A stretch of DNA of 45,210 nt, taken from Actinomycetota bacterium. GTDB lineage: Bacteria > Actinomycetota > Acidimicrobiia > Acidimicrobiales > Ilumatobacteraceae. The translations under genes were made by a program, and so were the position numbers. Location of the stretch: NCBI GenBank assembly GCA_027730505.1, contig JAQCGT010000010.1, forward strand, positions 1 to 45,210. Reading direction: 5' to 3'. The number at the start of each line of letters is the position of its first letter. Position 1 is the first letter of the stretch. The notes beneath the pieces are model-generated. The model was not told where the DNA came from. It was given only the letters and a program-made list of their open reading frames with translations, and did no database searches. Positions 3,748 to 43,004 of the stretch are shown one piece after another.

Positions 3748-4472
3748 TGCGATGCGCCCTCGATCACCGCAAGAGCCTCTGCAACCGTCAGGCGCCCCTC
3801 GTACACAGCTCGGCCGGTGATGATTCCGCCGAGACCTGCAATCGACGCCAGATCTCGGACATCGTCCAGTGACGACACACCACCGCTTGCAATCACCGGG
3901 ATCGGTGTTGACCTCACGGCGTCGGCGAGGCCTGAGACATCAGGGCCGTCGAGCATGCCGTCTCTAGAGATATCGGTGATCACGAAAGCCGAAGCTGCCG
4001 GAAACATGCCGAGTGCCTCAGCGACGCGCAGGTCGGAGGTCTCGAGCCAACCATCGGTAGCAACTTGGCCGTTGCGATGGTCGAGGCCGACTGCGACCGG
4101 AACCACGCCTGCGACCTCGGCGACTAGTCCTGGTGTCCGAACCGCCGCGGACCCCATGACCACCCTCGAGACACCTGCCTGAGCGTGTGCTTGGGCATCT
4201 TTCACAGTTCTCACACCGCCGCCGGTTTGGACACGCGCTCGACCATCGACAGCGGACACGATCCCTGCGATCACCTTTCGGTTCACTGGACCATCACCGC
4301 GGGCAGCGTCAAGGTCAACGATGTGAATCCAACGAGCACCGTCATCGGCAAATGCTTGTGCCACCGCGTTCGGATCTTCGCCGTACACGGTTTCGCGCCG
4401 ATAGTCCCCCTGACTCAAACGGACAACCTTTCCTCCTCGGAGGTCTATGGCAGGGAATAGCTCGGGGGTCAC
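3744..4472 (-). CDS. hisA: ProFAR isomerase HisA (possibly bifunctional PriA-like)
   Basis: Isomerises ProFAR to PRFAR in histidine synthesis. 242 residues, GTG start overlapping the hisH stop as GTGA. Catalytic aspartates lie in [19 protein letters not shown] and in [12 protein letters not shown]; phosphate loops are QTGGGVRT and IASGGVSS. In many actinobacteria one enzyme (PriA) also does the TrpF reaction. The N-terminal motif here is the plain HisA form, but GW in the mid-chain loop occurs in both, so bifunctionality cannot be decided without seeing whether the genome has a separate trpF. Confidence 0.94.
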
Positions 4473-36063: not shown

Positions 36064-38328
36064 ATGCCCGTGAGTGCCAGCACCCCCATCGAACTTGTCC
36101 GTCGCGTCTACTCGTCACTTCCTGAGCGGGTTGCGCTCGGTCGGGAGCGACTCGGACGTCCGTTGACGCTGGCTGAGAAGATTCTGATCAACCATCTCGT
36201 CGACCCGGCCCGCCAAGAGATGGTTCGTGGCTCCTCGTACGCCGACTTCAACCCCGATCGGGTCGCAATGCAGGATGCAACGGCGCAGATGGCGCTGTTG
36301 CAGTTCATGACCGCTGGTCTCGATGAGGCTGCCGTACCGTCGACAGTCCATTGCGATCACCTCATTCAGGCCAAGATCGGTGCTCGAATCGATCTCGATG
36401 TTGCCGTCGACACCAATCGGGAGGTCTACGAATTTCTCCGCACCGTATCGGCGCGCTATGGCATCGGCTTCTGGGGCCCCGGTTCGGGCATTATCCATCA
36501 GGTTGTGCTCGAGAACTACGCGTTCCCGGGCGGAATGATGATCGGAACCGACTCCCACACCCCGAACGCCGGGGGACTCGGGATGGTGGCCATCGGTGTA
36601 GGCGGCGCTGACGCTGTCGACGTGATGACCGGTTTCCCCTGGAACGTCCGATGGCCAAAAGTCATTGGTGTCCGTCTCACTGGCGCGCTGAACGGCTGGT
36701 CGTCACCAAAGGATGTCATCCTTGAGGTTGCGCGCAGACTGACGGTCGAAGGCGGCACCGGCGCCATCGTCGAATATCACGGTCCGGGTGCCGACAGCAT
36801 CTCGGCCACGGGCAAGGCGACCATCTGCAACATGGGCGCAGAGATCGGGGCCACGACCTCAGTCTTCGGGTACGACATGAACATGTCGGCGTATCTCCGC
36901 GCGACGGGTCGCTCCGAGATCGCTGATGCAGCGGACGGCGTAGCGGGTGATCTCCGCGCAGATGACGGCGCCTTGTATGACGAAGTGATCGAGATTGACC
37001 TGTCTGACTTGCGCCCCATGATCAACGGGCCACACAGCCCCGATCGCGCCCATAGGGTTGGCGCCGAGGTCGGATCGGCAGCGGCAGCCAACGAATGGCC
37101 GTTGGAGGTCTCGGCGGCGCTCATCGGCTCGTGCACCAATTCGTCGTACGAAGACCTCACCCGGGCCGCATCGATTGCTCGTCAAGCGGCGGCAGCGGGA
37201 ATTCGTTGCGTTACCGAGTTGCTGATCACGCCGGGTTCAGAGCAGACCAGGGCGACGATCGAGCGAGATGGCATCCTCGCCGACCTCGAAGCCGTCGGCG
37301 CCACGGTGCTCGCCAACGCGTGCGGTCCCTGTATCGGACAGTGGAGTCGACCAGATTCCGCCACAGGCGTTCCGAACACGATCGTCAACTCGTTCAACCG
37401 TAATTTTCCGAAGCGGAACGATGGGAGCGCCAACACGCTCTCCTTCGTGACGTCCCCGGACACCGTCATGGCTATCGCCCTCTCGGGCCGCCTCGACTTT
37501 GATCCCGTCACCGATGCATTGACTGCGCCTGATGGATCGCAAGTTCGCCTTGATCCGCCAGTTGGTGAGGTGCTGCCCTCACAGGGCTATGACCCAGGGG
37601 TCGACACCTTCACCGCTCCCCCTGACGACCGTCGGTCCGTCGCAGTACGTGTTGACCCGTCGAGTGATCGCTTGCAGCTGCTCGAACCATTCGCGGCGTG
37701 GGACGGCAACGACTACCTCGGTTTGCCCGTACTCATGAAAGCGCAGGGAAAGTGCACCACTGACCACATCTCGGCGGCGGGACCATGGCTGAAGTACCGC
37801 GGACACCTAGAGAACATCTCAGGCAATCTGTTCGCCGGTGCGGTCAACGCCTACGACGGTGTTGTCGGTATCGGCCTCGACATCACCGATGGCGAACGCC
37901 GTACATATCCCGAAATCGCTCGTCGCTATCACGAAGCGGGCATCAGATGGGTGGCAATTGGCGACCGCAACTATGGCGAGGGCTCATCCAGAGAGCACGC
38001 AGCGATGGAACCCCGGTTCCGCAACGGAGTCGTTGTCATTGCTCGGTCCTTCGCCCGTATCCACGAGACCAACCTCAAGAAGCAGGGCATGCTGCCACTC
38101 ACCTTCTCCAGCCCAGACACGTACGAGGAGATCGGTGAGCACGATCGGATCGATGTACTCGACCTCCCGCCGGTTCCCGGCGAGCCGGTTCGGTGTCGCA
38201 TCGTTCGGCCCGACGGATCGCTAGTTGATTTCGAATGCTCCCACACCTTCAGCGAGGAGCAGGTCGAGTGGTTCCGTGCGGGCTCGGCGCTCAACATCGT
38301 TCGACGCAAGGTGGCTGCCGGCGAGTGA
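36064..38328 (+). CDS. acn: aconitate hydratase, mitochondrial type
   Basis: Citrate-isocitrate isomerisation in the TCA cycle via a 4Fe-4S cluster. 754 residues, the size and sequence type of mitochondrial aconitase rather than AcnA/IRP1 (about 900). Cluster cysteines C357 (GSCTNSS), C420 and C423 (ACGPCIG); also TDSHTPNAGGLG, SFNRNFPKRND and the swivelling C-terminal domain with GRNYGEGSSREHAA-type GDRNYGEGSSREH. Own leaderless promoter. Its 3' end overlaps the convergent PAP2 gene by 38 bases. Citrate synthase lies 3.4 kb downstream. Confidence 0.95.
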   Translation: MPVSASTPIELVRRVYSSLPERVALGRERLGRPLTLAEKILINHLVDPARQEMVRGSSYADFNPDRVAMQDATAQMALLQFMTAGLDEAAVPSTVHCDHLIQAKIGARIDLDVAVDTNREVYEFLRTVSARYGIGFWGPGSGIIHQVVLENYAFPGGMMIGTDSHTPNAGGLGMVAIGVGGADAVDVMTGFPWNVRWPKVIGVRLTGALNGWSSPKDVILEVARRLTVEGGTGAIVEYHGPGADSISATGKATICNMGAEIGATTSVFGYDMNMSAYLRATGRSEIADAADGVAGDLRADDGALYDEVIEIDLSDLRPMINGPHSPDRAHRVGAEVGSAAAANEWPLEVSAALIGSCTNSSYEDLTRAASIARQAAAAGIRCVTELLITPGSEQTRATIERDGILADLEAVGATVLANACGPCIGQWSRPDSATGVPNTIVNSFNRNFPKRNDGSANTLSFVTSPDTVMAIALSGRLDFDPVTDALTAPDGSQVRLDPPVGEVLPSQGYDPGVDTFTAPPDDRRSVAVRVDPSSDRLQLLEPFAAWDGNDYLGLPVLMKAQGKCTTDHISAAGPWLKYRGHLENISGNLFAGAVNAYDGVVGIGLDITDGERRTYPEIARRYHEAGIRWVAIGDRNYGEGSSREHAAMEPRFRNGVVVIARSFARIHETNLKKQGMLPLTFSSPDTYEEIGEHDRIDVLDLPPVPGEPVRCRIVRPDGSLVDFECSHTFSEEQVEWFRAGSALNIVRRKVAAGE

Positions 38329-39088
38329 TCACGGCGCCGGCCATTGCTGCCGTAATTCGCACGATGGCGTAGATCACCGCAGCACACGCAGCATCCAGCC
38401 ACCAATGGTTTGCGGTTCCGATAATTGATGCGAGCATCAAGATTGGGTGATTGAGTGCGAGGTGGCGAAGGCGTGATGTCGACAGTCTGATGACCCAGAC
38501 CGAGGCGACGACGGCCCACGCGAAGTGAAGCGACGGCATGGCAGCGACCTGATTTGCTGCTCCGTCGAGCGCGCTCTCTGGATAGATCTTCGGTCCGAAG
38601 TCCGTGAGCGTGTCAACGAAGCCCGGCATCATTCGGGGCGGCGCAAGCGGAAACACGATGTGGACGAACAGCCCCGTCAACGTCACGGCGATCAATTCGT
38701 TGCGCAGGACCGAATAGTGGCCTCGATGCCGCCAGTACACCCAAACGAGCAGGGCCACTGCGACGGGAAAGTGCATCCAGACGTAGTACTGGTTCATGAG
38801 ATGAACCAGAACTGGTCGGCCGAGGATCCATCGTTGGATGTCGGCTTCAATCGCCAGACCTAGTCGGATCTCGATCTCGACAACGTTTCGCGCATTTCCG
38901 AAGGCGTCCACGAGTGTCGAACTGCTCAACGTGCGCACCCAGCGATAGCCAGTCATCATCGAAGCGACGATCACCAACTCCACGAACACCGGCCCGAATG
39001 CCGAAATTCGATCTTTCGATTTCACTGGAACAATGTCGCTAAGGGGTGCGCGATCAATGTCACGTCGGACATCCATGCTCATCTGCAT
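38291..39088 (-). CDS. PAP2-superfamily membrane protein (inositolphosphotransferase/Aur1-like)
   Basis: 265 residues, about six membrane segments. PAP2 signatures: PPRMMPGFVDTL (150-161), MPSLHFAWAV (184-193) and H228-WWL-D232, which together form the acid-phosphatase-type active site on the outer face. The N-terminal block GNARNVVEIEIRLGLAIE followed by YYVWMHFPVAVALLVW is typical of the PAP2_3 group, which includes phosphatidylinositol-type head-group transferases. A lipid phosphatase or phosphotransferase role is inferred. Start codon uncertain (ATGs at 39088, 39082, 39076). It is 70 bases downstream of the candidate sRNA terminator on the same strand. Confidence 0.8.
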   Translation of the reverse strand: MQMSMDVRRDIDRAPLSDIVPVKSKDRISAFGPVFVELVIVASMMTGYRWVRTLSSSTLVDAFGNARNVVEIEIRLGLAIEADIQRWILGRPVLVHLMNQYYVWMHFPVAVALLVWVYWRHRGHYSVLRNELIAVTLTGLFVHIVFPLAPPRMMPGFVDTLTDFGPKIYPESALDGAANQVAAMPSLHFAWAVVASVWVIRLSTSRLRHLALNHPILMLASIIGTANHWWLDAACAAVIYAIVRITAAMAGAVITRRQPPCVERC

Positions 39089-39157
39089 CGGACGCTACGC
39101 GCAGCTACCAGCTGCGAGACACGACAGACGTCAGCACAGTCATCACGATCGAGGTCG

Positions 39158-39196
39158 AAAAACGGGAGACGCCCCGATGGGGGATCGGGGCATCTC
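39158..39196 (-). terminator. intrinsic terminator of the candidate sRNA
   Basis: 13-bp GC-rich hairpin (arms 39184-39196 and 39166-39178, loop CCCCC) followed on the minus strand by CCG and five T (39162-39158). It is the only convincing hairpin plus T-run I found in the window. Confidence 0.65.
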
Positions 39197-39252
39197 AACC
39201 TGGGATTCAAGATCCCACGAGCGGAACATGGGGGGTGTGCCGCTACGTCTTG
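39158..39252 (-). ncRNA. candidate small RNA with C-rich loops (6C-like), about 95 nt
   Basis: Minus-strand element in a 237-base gap without a convincing gene. In order: hairpin 1 with AGCGG/CCGCT and ACA/TGT stems closing a loop of six C (39211-39247 region); hairpin 2 TGGGAT/ATCCCA (39201-39217); hairpin 3, a 13-bp stem (39166-39178 with 39184-39196, one G-U pair) closing a loop of five C, followed by a T-run (39162-39158). A TACTTT -10 (39264-39259) would start the RNA near 39252. C-loop hairpins recall the actinobacterial 6C RNA, but the second C-run has only five C, so the family link is tentative. It could instead be a leader/attenuator of the PAP2 gene. Confidence 0.55.
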
Positions 39253-39258
39253 CTTGTG

Positions 39259-39264
39259 AAAGTA
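39259..39264 (-). promoter_or_regulatory. candidate -10 for the small RNA
   Basis: TACTTT on the minus strand, abutting the 20-bp palindrome at 39264-39283, so a bound regulator would touch it. Confidence 0.4.
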
Positions 39265-39283
39265 TGCACGTGTCCTCGTGCAT
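39264..39283. promoter_or_regulatory. palindromic operator candidate (LysR-type site)
   Basis: ATGCACG-tgtcct-CGTGCAT: perfect 7-bp arms around a 6-bp spacer. It lies between the LysR gene start and the divergent sRNA promoter, the usual place for a LysR-type autoregulatory site. It could also fold as an RNA hairpin. Confidence 0.5.
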
Positions 39284-39311
39284 CTCGCAAGTAGAACGTG
39301 GTGATATGGGC

Positions 39312-39317
39312 TATCTT
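39312..39317 (+). promoter_or_regulatory. -10 element, near-leaderless start of LysR gene
   Basis: TATCTT, 8 nt before the ATG at 39326, leaving at most one or two untranslated bases. Confidence 0.4.
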
Positions 39318-39325
39318 TTTTAGAG

Positions 39326-40237
39326 ATGGATCTCCGGCAACTGACCACCCTCATCGCGATAGCTGACCACGGGAGTTTCAGCGCCGCCGCCCGCTCTCTT
39401 TACACGGTGCAATCCAACGTCTCCGGCCATGTCGCCCGACTGGAGCGAGAACTTGGCGTAGTCCTGGTCGATAGAGCGAATGGTCGGATGACCGAACACG
39501 GCGATCGCGTCCTTGAGCGGGCGCGCAGAATTATGCACGAACTCGAAGACATCGTGTCCGACATCAGGAGTCGAGAACACGACATCGCCGGCGATGTTCG
39601 CATCGGGGTCATCGGCACAGTCGCTCGATGGGTCATGCCGCCGCTGCTCGCTTCAGTGGCAGCCCGGCATCCCAGCGTGCACACCATCGTGAGCGAGGGA
39701 AGTTCCTCTGCTCTCGTCCCGAACGTCGCCAGCGGATTGCTGAACGGAGCCATCGTGCATCTGCCGGTTGATGAACCCGACATGACGGTCGTCCCGTTTT
39801 TCGATGAAGAGCTTCTCCTGATGGCACCGCTCGATCATGAGCTGGCCAACGAACAACGCATCGCCATCAGTGATCTCCATCGTCGACCGTTGCTCCTCCC
39901 ACCTGGAGGAGCGGCACTCCGGCGAATTCTTGATCGGAGTGCCGCCGAGAATGGCATCACCCTTATCCCCCAGACCGAGGTCGACGGGGTGAGACTGCTG
40001 GCTTCGCTTGCTCGGGATGGTCACGGCGCCGCGATCGTTCCAGCAACGGCTCTGCGCGCCGAGACATCCAGTGATGTCGTCATGATCCCCGTCGATGGAC
40101 TGCCCCGCCGTCGTGTTGCCTGGGTGAGAAGGCGTCGTCCGAACCCGACACCCGCCACCGAGGCCGTATTCGATTGCCTGCAATTAACTGTTGCCGACAA
40201 CCTTCAGCATCAGATAGGCCTACATCCTCCGGTCTGA
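39326..40237 (+). CDS. LysR-family transcriptional regulator
   Basis: 303 residues. N-terminal winged helix-turn-helix (1-60: MDLRQLTTLIAIADHGSFSAAARSLYTVQSNVSGHVARLE), linker helix, then a two-lobed effector domain from about 90 (DVRIGVIGTVARWVMPPLLA). The effector is unknown. Upstream lie a perfect 7-bp-arm palindrome and the divergent sRNA candidate; downstream, 54 bases away, is the acyl-CoA carboxylase gene with its own -10. Either could be a target. Confidence 0.9.
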   Translation: MDLRQLTTLIAIADHGSFSAAARSLYTVQSNVSGHVARLERELGVVLVDRANGRMTEHGDRVLERARRIMHELEDIVSDIRSREHDIAGDVRIGVIGTVARWVMPPLLASVAARHPSVHTIVSEGSSSALVPNVASGLLNGAIVHLPVDEPDMTVVPFFDEELLLMAPLDHELANEQRIAISDLHRRPLLLPPGGAALRRILDRSAAENGITLIPQTEVDGVRLLASLARDGHGAAIVPATALRAETSSDVVMIPVDGLPRRRVAWVRRRRPNPTPATEAVFDCLQLTVADNLQHQIGLHPPV

Positions 40238-40278
40238 TCGCCCGTTCTGGGCTACCGGTCGTTGAACCGCTCAACATC

Positions 40279-40284
40279 TAATGT
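40279..40284 (+). promoter_or_regulatory. -10 element, leaderless start of carboxylase beta gene
   Basis: TAATGT, 7 nt before the GTG at 40292. Confidence 0.5.
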
Positions 40285-40291
40285 CTGGCGG

Positions 40292-41641
40292 GTGACCATC
40301 GAGAGCGTCAAATTTGACGCAAGGATTCCTGGAGCGGCTTCCGCTCGATTCCGCACCATTGGCTCACGTCGAGTCGTCTGCGTCGAGTTCGATAGCTCCG
40401 CGCCCGCTCCTCCGCTGACATCTGAAATGACGACCGTCATGACCGACGGTTGCCGCATGGCTCTCGAAGAGCGGGTACCGCTGCTGCTCATCATCAACAG
40501 TGCTGGCGCAGACATCGCAGAGGGTGTGGCACCTCTGGACGGCTGGGGTCGAGCAGCGAGAATTCTCACCCGATGCTCTGGTCGCGTGCCGACCTTTGCC
40601 ATCGTCGATGGGCCTGCGGTGTCGGGGCCCGCCCTACTCCTCGGACTTGTCGACCACGTGATCATGACCTCGCGCGCCTATGCGTTCGTCAACGGGCCGG
40701 TGATGGTCGAGCAGTTCACCGGTATTGCAATCAGCAAGGACGAACTCGGCAGTGCCGAGACCATGGAACGCACAGCCGGACTCGCCACATGTGTGGTGGA
40801 CGACCGGGATCAGGGACTCCACGTGGTCACAGACATCTTGGACCATCTTCCTGATCACAGCGACCTTCCCGCTCCCACCGAGGTCGCGCATGATCCCGTT
40901 TGGAGGTCCACCCCGGAGGCCGGTGAGGCCATTCCAGAGACAGCTACCGGCAGCTACGACGTTCGCACAGTCATCGAGGCGATCGTCGATGACGGGGACT
41001 ATCTAGAGATACGAAGCCGTTGGGCCACCAACGTTGTCACTGCATACGCGCGGCTCGGTGGACGATCGATCGGAATCGTCGCCAATCAGCCGTTGGCCCT
41101 CGCCGGCACACTCGACATTCCCGCTTCACAGAAGGCAGCACGTTTCGTGAATTGCTGCGACGCCTTCGGGCTGCCGATTCTGACGCTCGTCGACACACCG
41201 GGCTTCTACCCCGGCAAGGATCTCGAGTGGCGCGGCATGATCCGTCACGGAGCGCAACTCGTGTACGCCTACGGCCAGGCGACCGTCCCGAGAGTGTGCG
41301 TGATCCTGCGCAAGAGTTACGGCGGTGCCTACATCGTCATGGACTCCAAGGAGATGGGTAACGACATCTGCCTGGCATGGCCTTGGGCCGAACTTGCGGT
41401 GATGGGTGCCGGTCAGGCATCGGCAATTCTGCGACGGGGCGCGTCAGACATCGACCGGGCGGACTTCGAGGCCGACTACGCCGAGCGGCTTCTCAACCCC
41501 TACGTGGCCGCTGAGCGTGGCTACGTCGACGATGTGATCGATCCGGCTGACACCCGTCGGGTCGTTGCAGGAGCGTTCGCGATGCTCGCCGACAAACGCG
41601 ATCGACGCCCAGGTCGTCGACACGGCAATTCGCCCCTCTGA
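40292..41641 (+). CDS. acyl-CoA carboxylase carboxyltransferase (beta) subunit, short form
   Basis: 449 residues, versus about 510-530 for typical PccB/AccD. The C-terminal half is well conserved: DGDYLEIRSRWATNVVTAYARLGG, NQPLALAGTLDIPASQKAARFV, LVDTPGFYPGKDLEWRG, YGGAYIVMDSKEMG and AVMGAGQASAILRR, which form the biotin/acyl-CoA sites. The N-terminal half is divergent and lacks the usual opening ERIxxLLDxGSF block. The frame extends to 40262, but GTG 40292 fits the promoter. No biotin carboxylase/carrier gene is in the window, so its partner and acyl substrate are unknown. A decarboxylase role is possible. Confidence 0.82.
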   Translation: MTIESVKFDARIPGAASARFRTIGSRRVVCVEFDSSAPAPPLTSEMTTVMTDGCRMALEERVPLLLIINSAGADIAEGVAPLDGWGRAARILTRCSGRVPTFAIVDGPAVSGPALLLGLVDHVIMTSRAYAFVNGPVMVEQFTGIAISKDELGSAETMERTAGLATCVVDDRDQGLHVVTDILDHLPDHSDLPAPTEVAHDPVWRSTPEAGEAIPETATGSYDVRTVIEAIVDDGDYLEIRSRWATNVVTAYARLGGRSIGIVANQPLALAGTLDIPASQKAARFVNCCDAFGLPILTLVDTPGFYPGKDLEWRGMIRHGAQLVYAYGQATVPRVCVILRKSYGGAYIVMDSKEMGNDICLAWPWAELAVMGAGQASAILRRGASDIDRADFEADYAERLLNPYVAAERGYVDDVIDPADTRRVVAGAFAMLADKRDRRPGRRHGNSPL

Positions 41642-41689
41642 TCGCACAGATCACCGCATCACCGTTGGTCGCCTGAAGGGGCGAACCGA

Positions 41690-41695
41690 TACATT
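41690..41695 (+). promoter_or_regulatory. candidate -10 for citrate synthase gene
   Basis: TACATT, giving a leader of about 31 nt that carries GGAGGA (41722-41727), the strongest Shine-Dalgarno in the window, 5 nt before GTG 41733. Confidence 0.4.
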
Positions 41696-41732
41696 GGGAT
41701 CGGCCCGTGATCGAATGAACCGGAGGACCTTC

Positions 41733-43004
41733 GTGCCCGAAACCATCACCATCACCGACGACCGAACCGGACAGACGGTCACGGTCCCGATCGAGGGCGG
41801 TGTGTTCCCCGCATCAGCGATTCGCTCACTCGATCCCTCGCTGTTCGTCTATGACCCTGCCTACATGCAGACGGCTTCGTGCAAGTCTGCGATCACCTAT
41901 CTGGACGGTGACAACGGAATCCTTCGCTACCGCGGTTACCCGATCGAGCAACTAGCCGAGAAGTCGTCGTTCCTCGAGGTTGCCTACCTGCTTCTGCATG
42001 GCGAACTCCCATCCGCCGAGCAGTTGTCGAATTGGCGGCACGAGGTGACCCATCACACCTTCATTCACGAGAACATGCGCAAGCGGTTCGTCGACGGCTT
42101 CCACTACGACGCTCATCCGATGGGGATGTTCGTGTCAGCAGTCGCTGCACTCGGAACCTTCTATGACGGCGCCAAGGACATCGACGACCCCGAGAGTCGC
42201 TACAAGCAGGTGCTTCGCATGATTGCGAAGACCCCGACGATTGCAGCGATGTGCTACCGGTTCTCGGTTGGGCTGCCGTTCAACTATCCGGACAACGATC
42301 TTTCCTTCCCCGCGAACTTCTTGTCGATGATGTGGAAGGTCGGCAACCACTACGAGGTCGATCCTGTTCTCGAGCGGGCGATGGACATTCTGTTCATCCT
42401 TCATGCCGACCACGAGCAGAACTGTGGTACGACCGCAATGCGGGTGGTTGGCTCGTCCAACGCCGACCCTTACTCGTCCGCCGCAGCTGCAGCAAGCGCC
42501 CTGTACGGCCCGTTGCACGGTGGCGCCAATGAGGCGGTTGTTCGCATGCTGGCCGACATCGGCGAGGCTGCAAACGTTCCGGCCTTCATCGACGACGTCA
42601 AGGCGGGCAAGGGCCGTTTGATGGGCTTCGGCCACCGGGTCTACAAGAACTACGACCCGAGGGCGACGATCATCAAGAAGACGGCGTACGACGTGTTCGA
42701 GGTAACCGGCAAGAACCCTCTCCTCGACATCGCATTGAAACTCGAAGAGGTTGCTCTGCAGGACCCGTACTTCGTCGACCGGAAGCTCTACCCGAACGTC
42801 GACTTCTATTCGGGCTTGATCTACCAGGCGATGGGATTCCCAGTCGACATGTTCACCGTGTTGTTCGCGATACCGCGGACCGTCGGATGGCTCGCCCACT
42901 GGCAGGAGCTACTCGCTGACAAGGACCAGAAGATTTCGCGGCCGCGGCAGTGGTACGTCGGCCCCGACGCTCGCGACTACGTCGGTATCGACTCGCGTAG
43001 CTGA
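41733..43004 (+). CDS. gltA: citrate synthase
   Basis: Condenses oxaloacetate and acetyl-CoA. 423 residues, hexameric GltA type. Catalytic and binding residues visible in ILHADHEQNCGTTAMR, GPLHGGANEAV, MGFGHRVYKNYDPRA and FYSGLIYQAMGFP (aspartate/phenylalanine region). The frame is open to 41565 inside the preceding gene, but GTG 41733 has GGAGGA 5 nt upstream and gives the family N-terminus (MPETITITDDRTGQ). The acyl-CoA dehydrogenase follows after two bases, so they are cotranscribed. Confidence 0.96.
   Translation: MPETITITDDRTGQTVTVPIEGGVFPASAIRSLDPSLFVYDPAYMQTASCKSAITYLDGDNGILRYRGYPIEQLAEKSSFLEVAYLLLHGELPSAEQLSNWRHEVTHHTFIHENMRKRFVDGFHYDAHPMGMFVSAVAALGTFYDGAKDIDDPESRYKQVLRMIAKTPTIAAMCYRFSVGLPFNYPDNDLSFPANFLSMMWKVGNHYEVDPVLERAMDILFILHADHEQNCGTTAMRVVGSSNADPYSSAAAAASALYGPLHGGANEAVVRMLADIGEAANVPAFIDDVKAGKGRLMGFGHRVYKNYDPRATIIKKTAYDVFEVTGKNPLLDIALKLEEVALQDPYFVDRKLYPNVDFYSGLIYQAMGFPVDMFTVLFAIPRTVGWLAHWQELLADKDQKISRPRQWYVGPDARDYVGIDSRS

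Follow-up and report, generated by a model that had tools for sequence, protein, structure and literature searches.

Here, we describe a small RNA gene with cytosine-run hairpin loops in a window of 45,210 nucleotides from the Ilumatobacteraceae (the whole stretch of DNA that was analysed, contig JAQCGT010000010.1). Its structure, promoter and terminator are conserved among relatives, it keeps a fixed place beside the gene of a LysR-type regulator, and runs of five guanines (G5) mark the ribosome-binding sites of ABC-transporter substrate-binding protein (SBP) genes in the same bacterial family. We propose, at a probability of roughly 0.6, that it is a trans-acting sRNA set by the LysR-type regulator, whose anti-Shine-Dalgarno loops of C5 to C6 pair with SBP ribosome sites and lower nutrient uptake. 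We file it as a new family of a known kind, the C-loop anti-Shine-Dalgarno sRNAs, for which deep homology with the 6C RNA is possible. Its relatives are largely known from environmental genomes, and among the open-access papers listed by our literature searches none dealt with an sRNA of this class; with its likely regulator and a class of target sites open to testing, the RNA would offer a first riboregulatory circuit for study in these bacteria.

The held-out covariance model R1 places the RNA gene at 39157-39256 on the minus strand (about 97 nt), with a predicted transcript from about 39255 to 39158; in most relatives the predicted length is about 125 nt. An earlier note on this DNA, which gave no strand, had claimed three consecutive hairpins, two of them with C-run loops of six and five C, followed by a T-run, and this arrangement is confirmed on the minus strand. 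The 5' hairpin (39217-39248) carries a C6 loop (CCCCCC, 39230-39235) and shows two-sided changes in relatives at 12 of its 12 helix pairs, the middle hairpin (39202-39216) folds as a small stem and is devoid of a C-run in the window, and GGTTGAGA together with the terminator hairpin occupies 39166-39201, with a C5 loop (CCCCC, 39179-39183), a stem at 39196-39166 of 13 pairs, 8 of them G-C by sequence inspection, and the T-run TTTTT at 39158-39162. The minus strand of 39150-39270 folds at -46.2 kcal/mol vs -31.5 ± 3.1 for shuffles (z -4.7), none of 200 shuffles folding as well, and the plus strand gives z -2.5. Terminator scans of the whole window return a number of sites no higher than in shuffles; the terminator of the RNA is the top site by stem length and G-C pairs, in keeping with the claim that it is the only clear intrinsic terminator in the window. 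The gap is also gene-free as claimed, the RNA lying between the starts of a PAP2 phosphatase gene (39088, minus strand) and the LysR gene (39326, plus strand).

Conservation of the stems in relatives, which the earlier note had proposed as a check, is borne out: among 72 distinct sequences 34 of 41 pairs have two-sided changes and 93.4% of cells pair, and the covariation score is 0.459 vs 0.143 when shuffled and 0.04-0.074 with slid partners, in an alignment that was fitted to the model and so favours structure. RNAalifold on an unfitted MAFFT alignment of 26 sequences gives two-sided changes at 20 of 27 pairs, and the terminator helix has them at 9 of 16 pairs with 6 invariant. The stems vary in sequence and length, the C-runs are kept, and GGTTGAGA is present in 75 of the 77 RNAs. 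In most relatives there are three hairpins, and all three carry a loop that resembles UCCCCCA; the C-loops are exactly C5 in 149 of 204 cases, preceded by U in 162 and followed by A in 182. Three loops of at least four C (two flanking bases counted) appear in the minimum-energy folds of 50 of the 77 RNAs, the last C-loop being absent in 15 folds and the middle one in 12 (L097 and the 11 from the window's own genus). None of the 77 RNAs has fewer than two C-loops, a sign that the RNA works through its loops.

How widely does this RNA occur? When 15 other genomes of the genus were searched by BLAST with the region, 11 gave long matches (74-98% identity), G001, G008 and G009 gave short ones only and G010 gave none; three of the last four genomes are 69-86% complete, and G001 is 95% complete. 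A protein search with the LysR-type regulator named 80 loci, nearly all with the same RNA upstream, mostly with three C-run hairpins. R1, built on alignment A1 (26 of 38 diverse sequences, the window's genus excluded), has a sole match in the window up to E 10, at 65.8 bits and E 2.2e-15, and it detects the RNA next to the LysR gene at 77 of the 80 named loci (E is below 1e-9 for 76 of them and 4e-4 for L035), missing L105, L109 and L110. A linker filter kept 75 of 78 sequences, and the three that failed its regular expression (L077, L086, L087) were all recovered by the model. The L035 sequence (3825-3929), with a C11 run and a disrupted terminator hairpin, is a decayed copy or an assembly error and is not part of alignment A3. 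In a class-wide draw of 148 genomes the RNA is present in 11 of 11 listed genomes of the window's family, with one copy in the window's own genome. Outside the family, the displayed R1 matches (which do not include L131, L444, L445, L449 and L452) are ordinary terminators of up to 34.2 bits (L124), except for L125 (1501-1624), a distant relative with three C-run loops at a LysR/HAD locus. L110, missed by R1, has hairpins with loops of C7 and C9 at this LysR/HAD locus too; both are more distant relatives, with C6 to C9 loops, that R1 finds scarcely or not at all.

The promoter of the RNA, TTGCGA-N18-CATACT at 39261-39290 on the minus strand, is called by conservation, with the start site placed from it. 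The RNA had been credited with its own promoter, and although the match to consensus in the window is 8 of 12 and under the scanner threshold, the element is conserved: fitted as TTG-N3, a spacer of 16-18 nt and a -10, it reads CATACT in 62 of the 77 loci (window included) with a fittable promoter. At several loci (L043, L045, L046, L048, L049, L053, L056, L058) the terminator hairpin is kept and is followed by ATATA, not a T-run, and the -10 differs; termination may work differently there.

Between the two divergent genes lies a palindrome, GATA-N5-TATC (39303-39315), whose conservation across loci makes it a candidate LysR operator. The RNA adjoins the LysR gene in 77 of 80 loci, which were picked by this LysR, and GATA-N5-YATC stands between them in 76 of 78 (window included). 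Both the palindrome and the RNA -35 could be called in 75 loci, and in 68 of these they lie 19 bp apart, measured from the palindrome centre; the -35 of the remaining 7 was probably miscalled. At this distance the palindrome sits near -55 of the RNA, that is, about 55 bp upstream of the presumed start, and it overlaps the likely -10 of the LysR gene. The latter (39326-40237, plus strand; Pfam HTH_1, PF00126, and LysR_substrate, PF03466) has a leaderless-like start, TANNNT lying at most 18 nt before the LysR start in 74 of 81. The simplest reading of the position of the palindrome is that the LysR-type protein would regulate both itself and the divergent RNA.

The earlier note had likened the RNA to 6C, an RNA with two hairpins that carry at least six C in the loop. 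The window RNA has one loop of C6 and one of C5, relatives typically have C5 loops on three hairpins, and membership was rejected on the score of the 6C model, RF01066. The covariance search of the window that had been proposed was negative, with no match at E≤10; the model likewise gives none in the own genome at E≤0.001, none in L118-L120 at the gathering score, and in the 148 class genomes 0 matches over the cut-off and two weak ones of about 36 bits (L111, L112). At a lax threshold the relative L044 scores 22.9 bits (cut-off 47) and L125 has no match, and neither the window RNA nor three further relatives score above threshold with any family of Rfam 15.

We consider it rather unlikely that the Rfam model is simply too narrow and that the RNA is a distant member of the 6C family, known as B11 in mycobacteria, although the two resemble each other in several respects. 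Both have C-run loops and an Actinomycetota host, and in the window RNA, as in 6C, the last C-loop hairpin is the intrinsic terminator. According to PMC12395582, B11 likewise folds into three stem-loops, the second and third of them with C-rich loops, and in Mycobacterium marinum the C-loop of the B11/6C terminator pairs with guanine tracks by ribosome sites; complementary sites of that kind are the predicted targets here (see below). L044 aligns to RF01066 in register over the middle and terminator hairpins; its best Rfam match, however, is the alphaproteobacterial ar14 (28.0 bits), and the weak score therefore says only that the loops are C-rich. R1 in turn, applied to the 19 loci of RF01066 matches in the phylum, scores 13-28 bits at 15 of them, which is no better than its scores on ordinary terminators, and the two matches near 36 bits lie in other genomes of the class. 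Synteny through a HAD-domain neighbour, present in many loci of both RNAs and, as an informal criterion, a short HAD gene beside RF01066 matches in 12 of 18 genomes, looked convincing and was rejected, since domain make-up and orientation differ: a HAD-PlsC fusion of about 480 aa is found downstream here, whereas the three 6C loci read have a HAD protein of about 270 aa, divergent and upstream, and the window itself has the PAP2 gene instead. With the failed 6C model, mostly C5 loops, usually three C hairpins and other neighbours, the RNA described here is best treated as distinct. Two loci deserve mention in their own right. L112 (1501-1574; RF01066 36 bits), with two C6 hairpins in another genome of the class, is possibly a true 6C RNA, and L140 (1480-1600), a weak 6C match outside the class with apparently three C-run hairpins, is a possible link between the two- and three-hairpin forms.

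Which mRNAs might the loops address? The exact 9-mer TTGGGGGAA, as TTGGGGGAA-N2-12-ATG, gives 66 raw matches in 38 family genomes vs 57 in 38 outgroup genomes, for not all of which R1-negative status is established; at spacing 13-23 there are 36 raw matches and with the reversed pattern 10, compared with the 66 at ribosome-site spacing; overlapping matches and a small number that fall within the RNA gene are part of all these raw counts. An ORF of 120 aa or longer starts at 25 of the 56 family loci read and at 18 of the 54 read from the outgroup. The 57 outgroup matches mean that the exact test is not family-specific, and the 9-mer was ruled out as a family-specific target pattern. The real genes behind the family sites are often ABC substrate-binding lipoproteins, and the idea of SBP targets arose from inspecting these matches. 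One small genome, G017, has 11 raw TTGGGGGAA-N2-12-ATG matches (L193, L223-L230), of which one is an overlap and another lies within the RNA gene; at spacing 13-23 it has none. Several of the 11 precede SDR, CoA-transferase and SBP lipoprotein genes, as named from translations.

With starts assigned by a rule based on signal peptides and blind to G-runs, G5 falls within -21..-4 of 32 of the 63 LivK-like genes (PF13458) read in the family and of 13 of the 67 read in the outgroup (Fisher p 2e-4), the figures being 17 of 43 vs 12 of 58 when one gene per N-terminal cluster is taken (p 0.047); loci are related, which makes the p values optimistic, and two of the 63 test genes (L366, L398) were also among the 9-mer matches. 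In 30 of the 32 family genes the site reads GGGGGA, the complement of UCCCCC. PF00496 genes, compared within the family only and with no outgroup control, have G5 in 13 of 28 genes read. At intervals shifted upstream or downstream of -21..-4, 0 to 3 of the same SBP genes per interval show G5. Of 553 called genes of two family genomes, 10 have G5 (with a different start rule and a 16-nt window), as does 1 of 39 genes picked for exported- or membrane-like products regardless of kind, an unfiltered control with some membrane proteins and at least two SBP genes with GGGG (L181). In the own genome a G5 site precedes 3 of the 4 SBP genes read (L315, L394 and L468; not L402), of 7 matched. For PF13458 we took, per group, the 30 loci returned and 40 taken down the match list, with one own-genome row moved up in the family list (L402, negative) and three outgroup rows skipped (late domain start or contig edge). 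For PF13458 the rule yielded no start at 7 of 70 loci in the family, in two of which (L326, L327) G5 is visible by eye, and at 3 of 70 in the outgroup; for PF00496 it yielded none at 2 of 30.

Outgroup SBP genes, too, stand above the general level (13 of 67) in the absence of a recognised RNA, so that a preference in translation could explain part of the signal; here the R1 search covered the 22 outgroup genomes of the PF13458 comparison, and "without RNA" means no recognised copy, a diverged one being possible. Taken to its end, this would make GGGGGA a mere translation preference of SBP genes and leave the C-loops to serve a protein, as a C-rich RNA binder or decoy. Duplex energies agree with such an account in that they do not single out the targets (ranks 22, 25, 5 and 191 among 228 own genes), and the authors of the B11 study also consider a protein-linked core function (PMC12395582). 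On the other hand, the loops, with their motif UCCCCCA, complement these sites, and fewer PF13458 genes have an AGGAG site in the family (4 of 63) than in the outgroup (16 of 67, p 0.007). We regard this explanation as unlikely, and prefer pairing of the loops with SBP ribosome sites.

The genome had been thought to rely on leaderless mRNAs, such that the RNA would need other targets. As a trend, the first part is supported: TANNNT lies 16-4 nt before 19.7% of 228 called own-genome starts vs 1-2% further upstream, consistent with many leaderless mRNAs. The consequence need not follow, as 27.6% of starts have a Shine-Dalgarno-like 4-mer at -20..-4 (9-12% upstream) and a subclass of G5 ribosome sites marks SBP genes. 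Starts of the own genome show no general enrichment of G5 (0.9% at -20..-4 vs 0.9-1.3% upstream); for the genome G027 the figures are 2.5% vs 0.9-1.5%.

From these data a mechanism can be outlined. The LysR-type regulator would bind the palindrome between both genes and set transcription of the RNA, which would present anti-Shine-Dalgarno C5-C6 loops on two hairpins, and on three in most relatives. The loop core UCCCCC may pair with the GGGGGA of ribosome-binding sites on SBP mRNAs, and perhaps some catabolic genes would be targeted as well. Pairing would block translation and nutrient uptake would be lowered; judged from sequence, the RNA probably turns uptake down.

The closest parallels to this proposal come from Alphaproteobacteria. 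NfeR1 of Sinorhizobium has three hairpins with the same anti-Shine-Dalgarno loop, is activated by the LysR-type LsrB and silences periplasmic ABC components (PMC10746234), and AbcR1/2 adjoin lsrB and target livK and other binding-protein mRNAs (PMC8844928). NfeR1/alpha-r14 (RF02344, ar14) is alike in its repeated C-rich anti-Shine-Dalgarno-type loops, varying stems, sigma70-type promoter and LysR-type gene, and its targets include periplasmic ABC-transporter components, like the SBP targets predicted here (PMC10746234, PMC8844928). AbcR1/AbcR2 (alpha-r15) with LsrB/VtlR share with our system an sRNA adjoining a LysR gene, which there controls AbcR1, and have ABC substrate-binding proteins such as livK as targets, again like those predicted here (PMC8844928). 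However, NfeR1 is alphaproteobacterial and its loop, CCUCCUCCC, is present in 0 of 77 RNAs here, which have UCCCCCA-like loops. The ar14 model scores 28.0 bits in L044 and 26.3 in L125 against a cut-off of 58.8 and has no match in the window; three hairpins with the same loop, an ar14 trait, correspond here to the 50 of 77 RNAs with three C-run loops, the window RNA itself having two, and the anti-Shine-Dalgarno role is predicted. AbcR differs in sequence and structure and binds Hfq, and no Rfam family matches the window RNA. The likeness to LsrB-AbcR/NfeR1 apparently arose separately, with no shared ancestry indicated.

How could an anti-Shine-Dalgarno sRNA pick its targets? As a general rule GGGGG can still pair with CCUCC of 16S rRNA through one G-U pair, and it matches the UCCCCCA loops of the RNA perfectly; a one-letter change from GGAGG to GGGGG would thus keep translation and add control. 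We tentatively suggest, as an idea that falls somewhat short of even odds, that Ilumatobacteraceae mark uptake mRNAs by this change and that the RNA acts as a single switch for ABC uptake, one that evolved independently of LsrB-AbcR/NfeR1 in Alphaproteobacteria. If true, two phyla would have reached the same design of a LysR-type regulator, an anti-Shine-Dalgarno sRNA and uptake genes, which also suggests how such sRNAs select targets without blocking every ribosome site.

Finally, the gene after the RNA changes between relatives. In the window it is the PAP2 phosphatase gene (38291-39088, minus strand; Pfam PAP2_3, PF14378), downstream of the terminator and not part of the system. Across 77 loci (window included) it is a HAD-domain gene on the same strand in 48, a HAD-PlsC fusion where read, a convergent gene in 18, and another gene on the same strand in 2 (the window's PAP2 included); 5 loci have none found and 4 are too short to tell. 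That the RNA acts in cis on the gene behind it (PAP2 in particular), as a leader or attenuator, is highly improbable and we reject it: despite the HAD-domain gene next on the same strand in 48 of 77 loci, the downstream gene differs between relatives (it is convergent in 18, and in the window it is PAP2), the RNA ends in a strong terminator, and the C-loops are its conserved parts. The free-standing C-loop sRNA candidate of the earlier note is in this way upheld by conserved promoter, terminator and changing downstream gene. Among the 18 convergent downstream genes, 12 end like aconitase. In the window, aconitase, PAP2, the RNA, LysR, a carboxyltransferase-like gene and citrate synthase are clustered (36064-38328, 38291-39088 and 39326-43004), the genes other than PAP2 and LysR being named from reading translations. 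Given these neighbouring TCA-type genes, and the RNA convergent with an aconitase-like end in 12 of 77 loci, the LysR-type protein beside the C-loop RNA might sense a TCA metabolite, for which CcpC of Bacillus is a LysR-type precedent.
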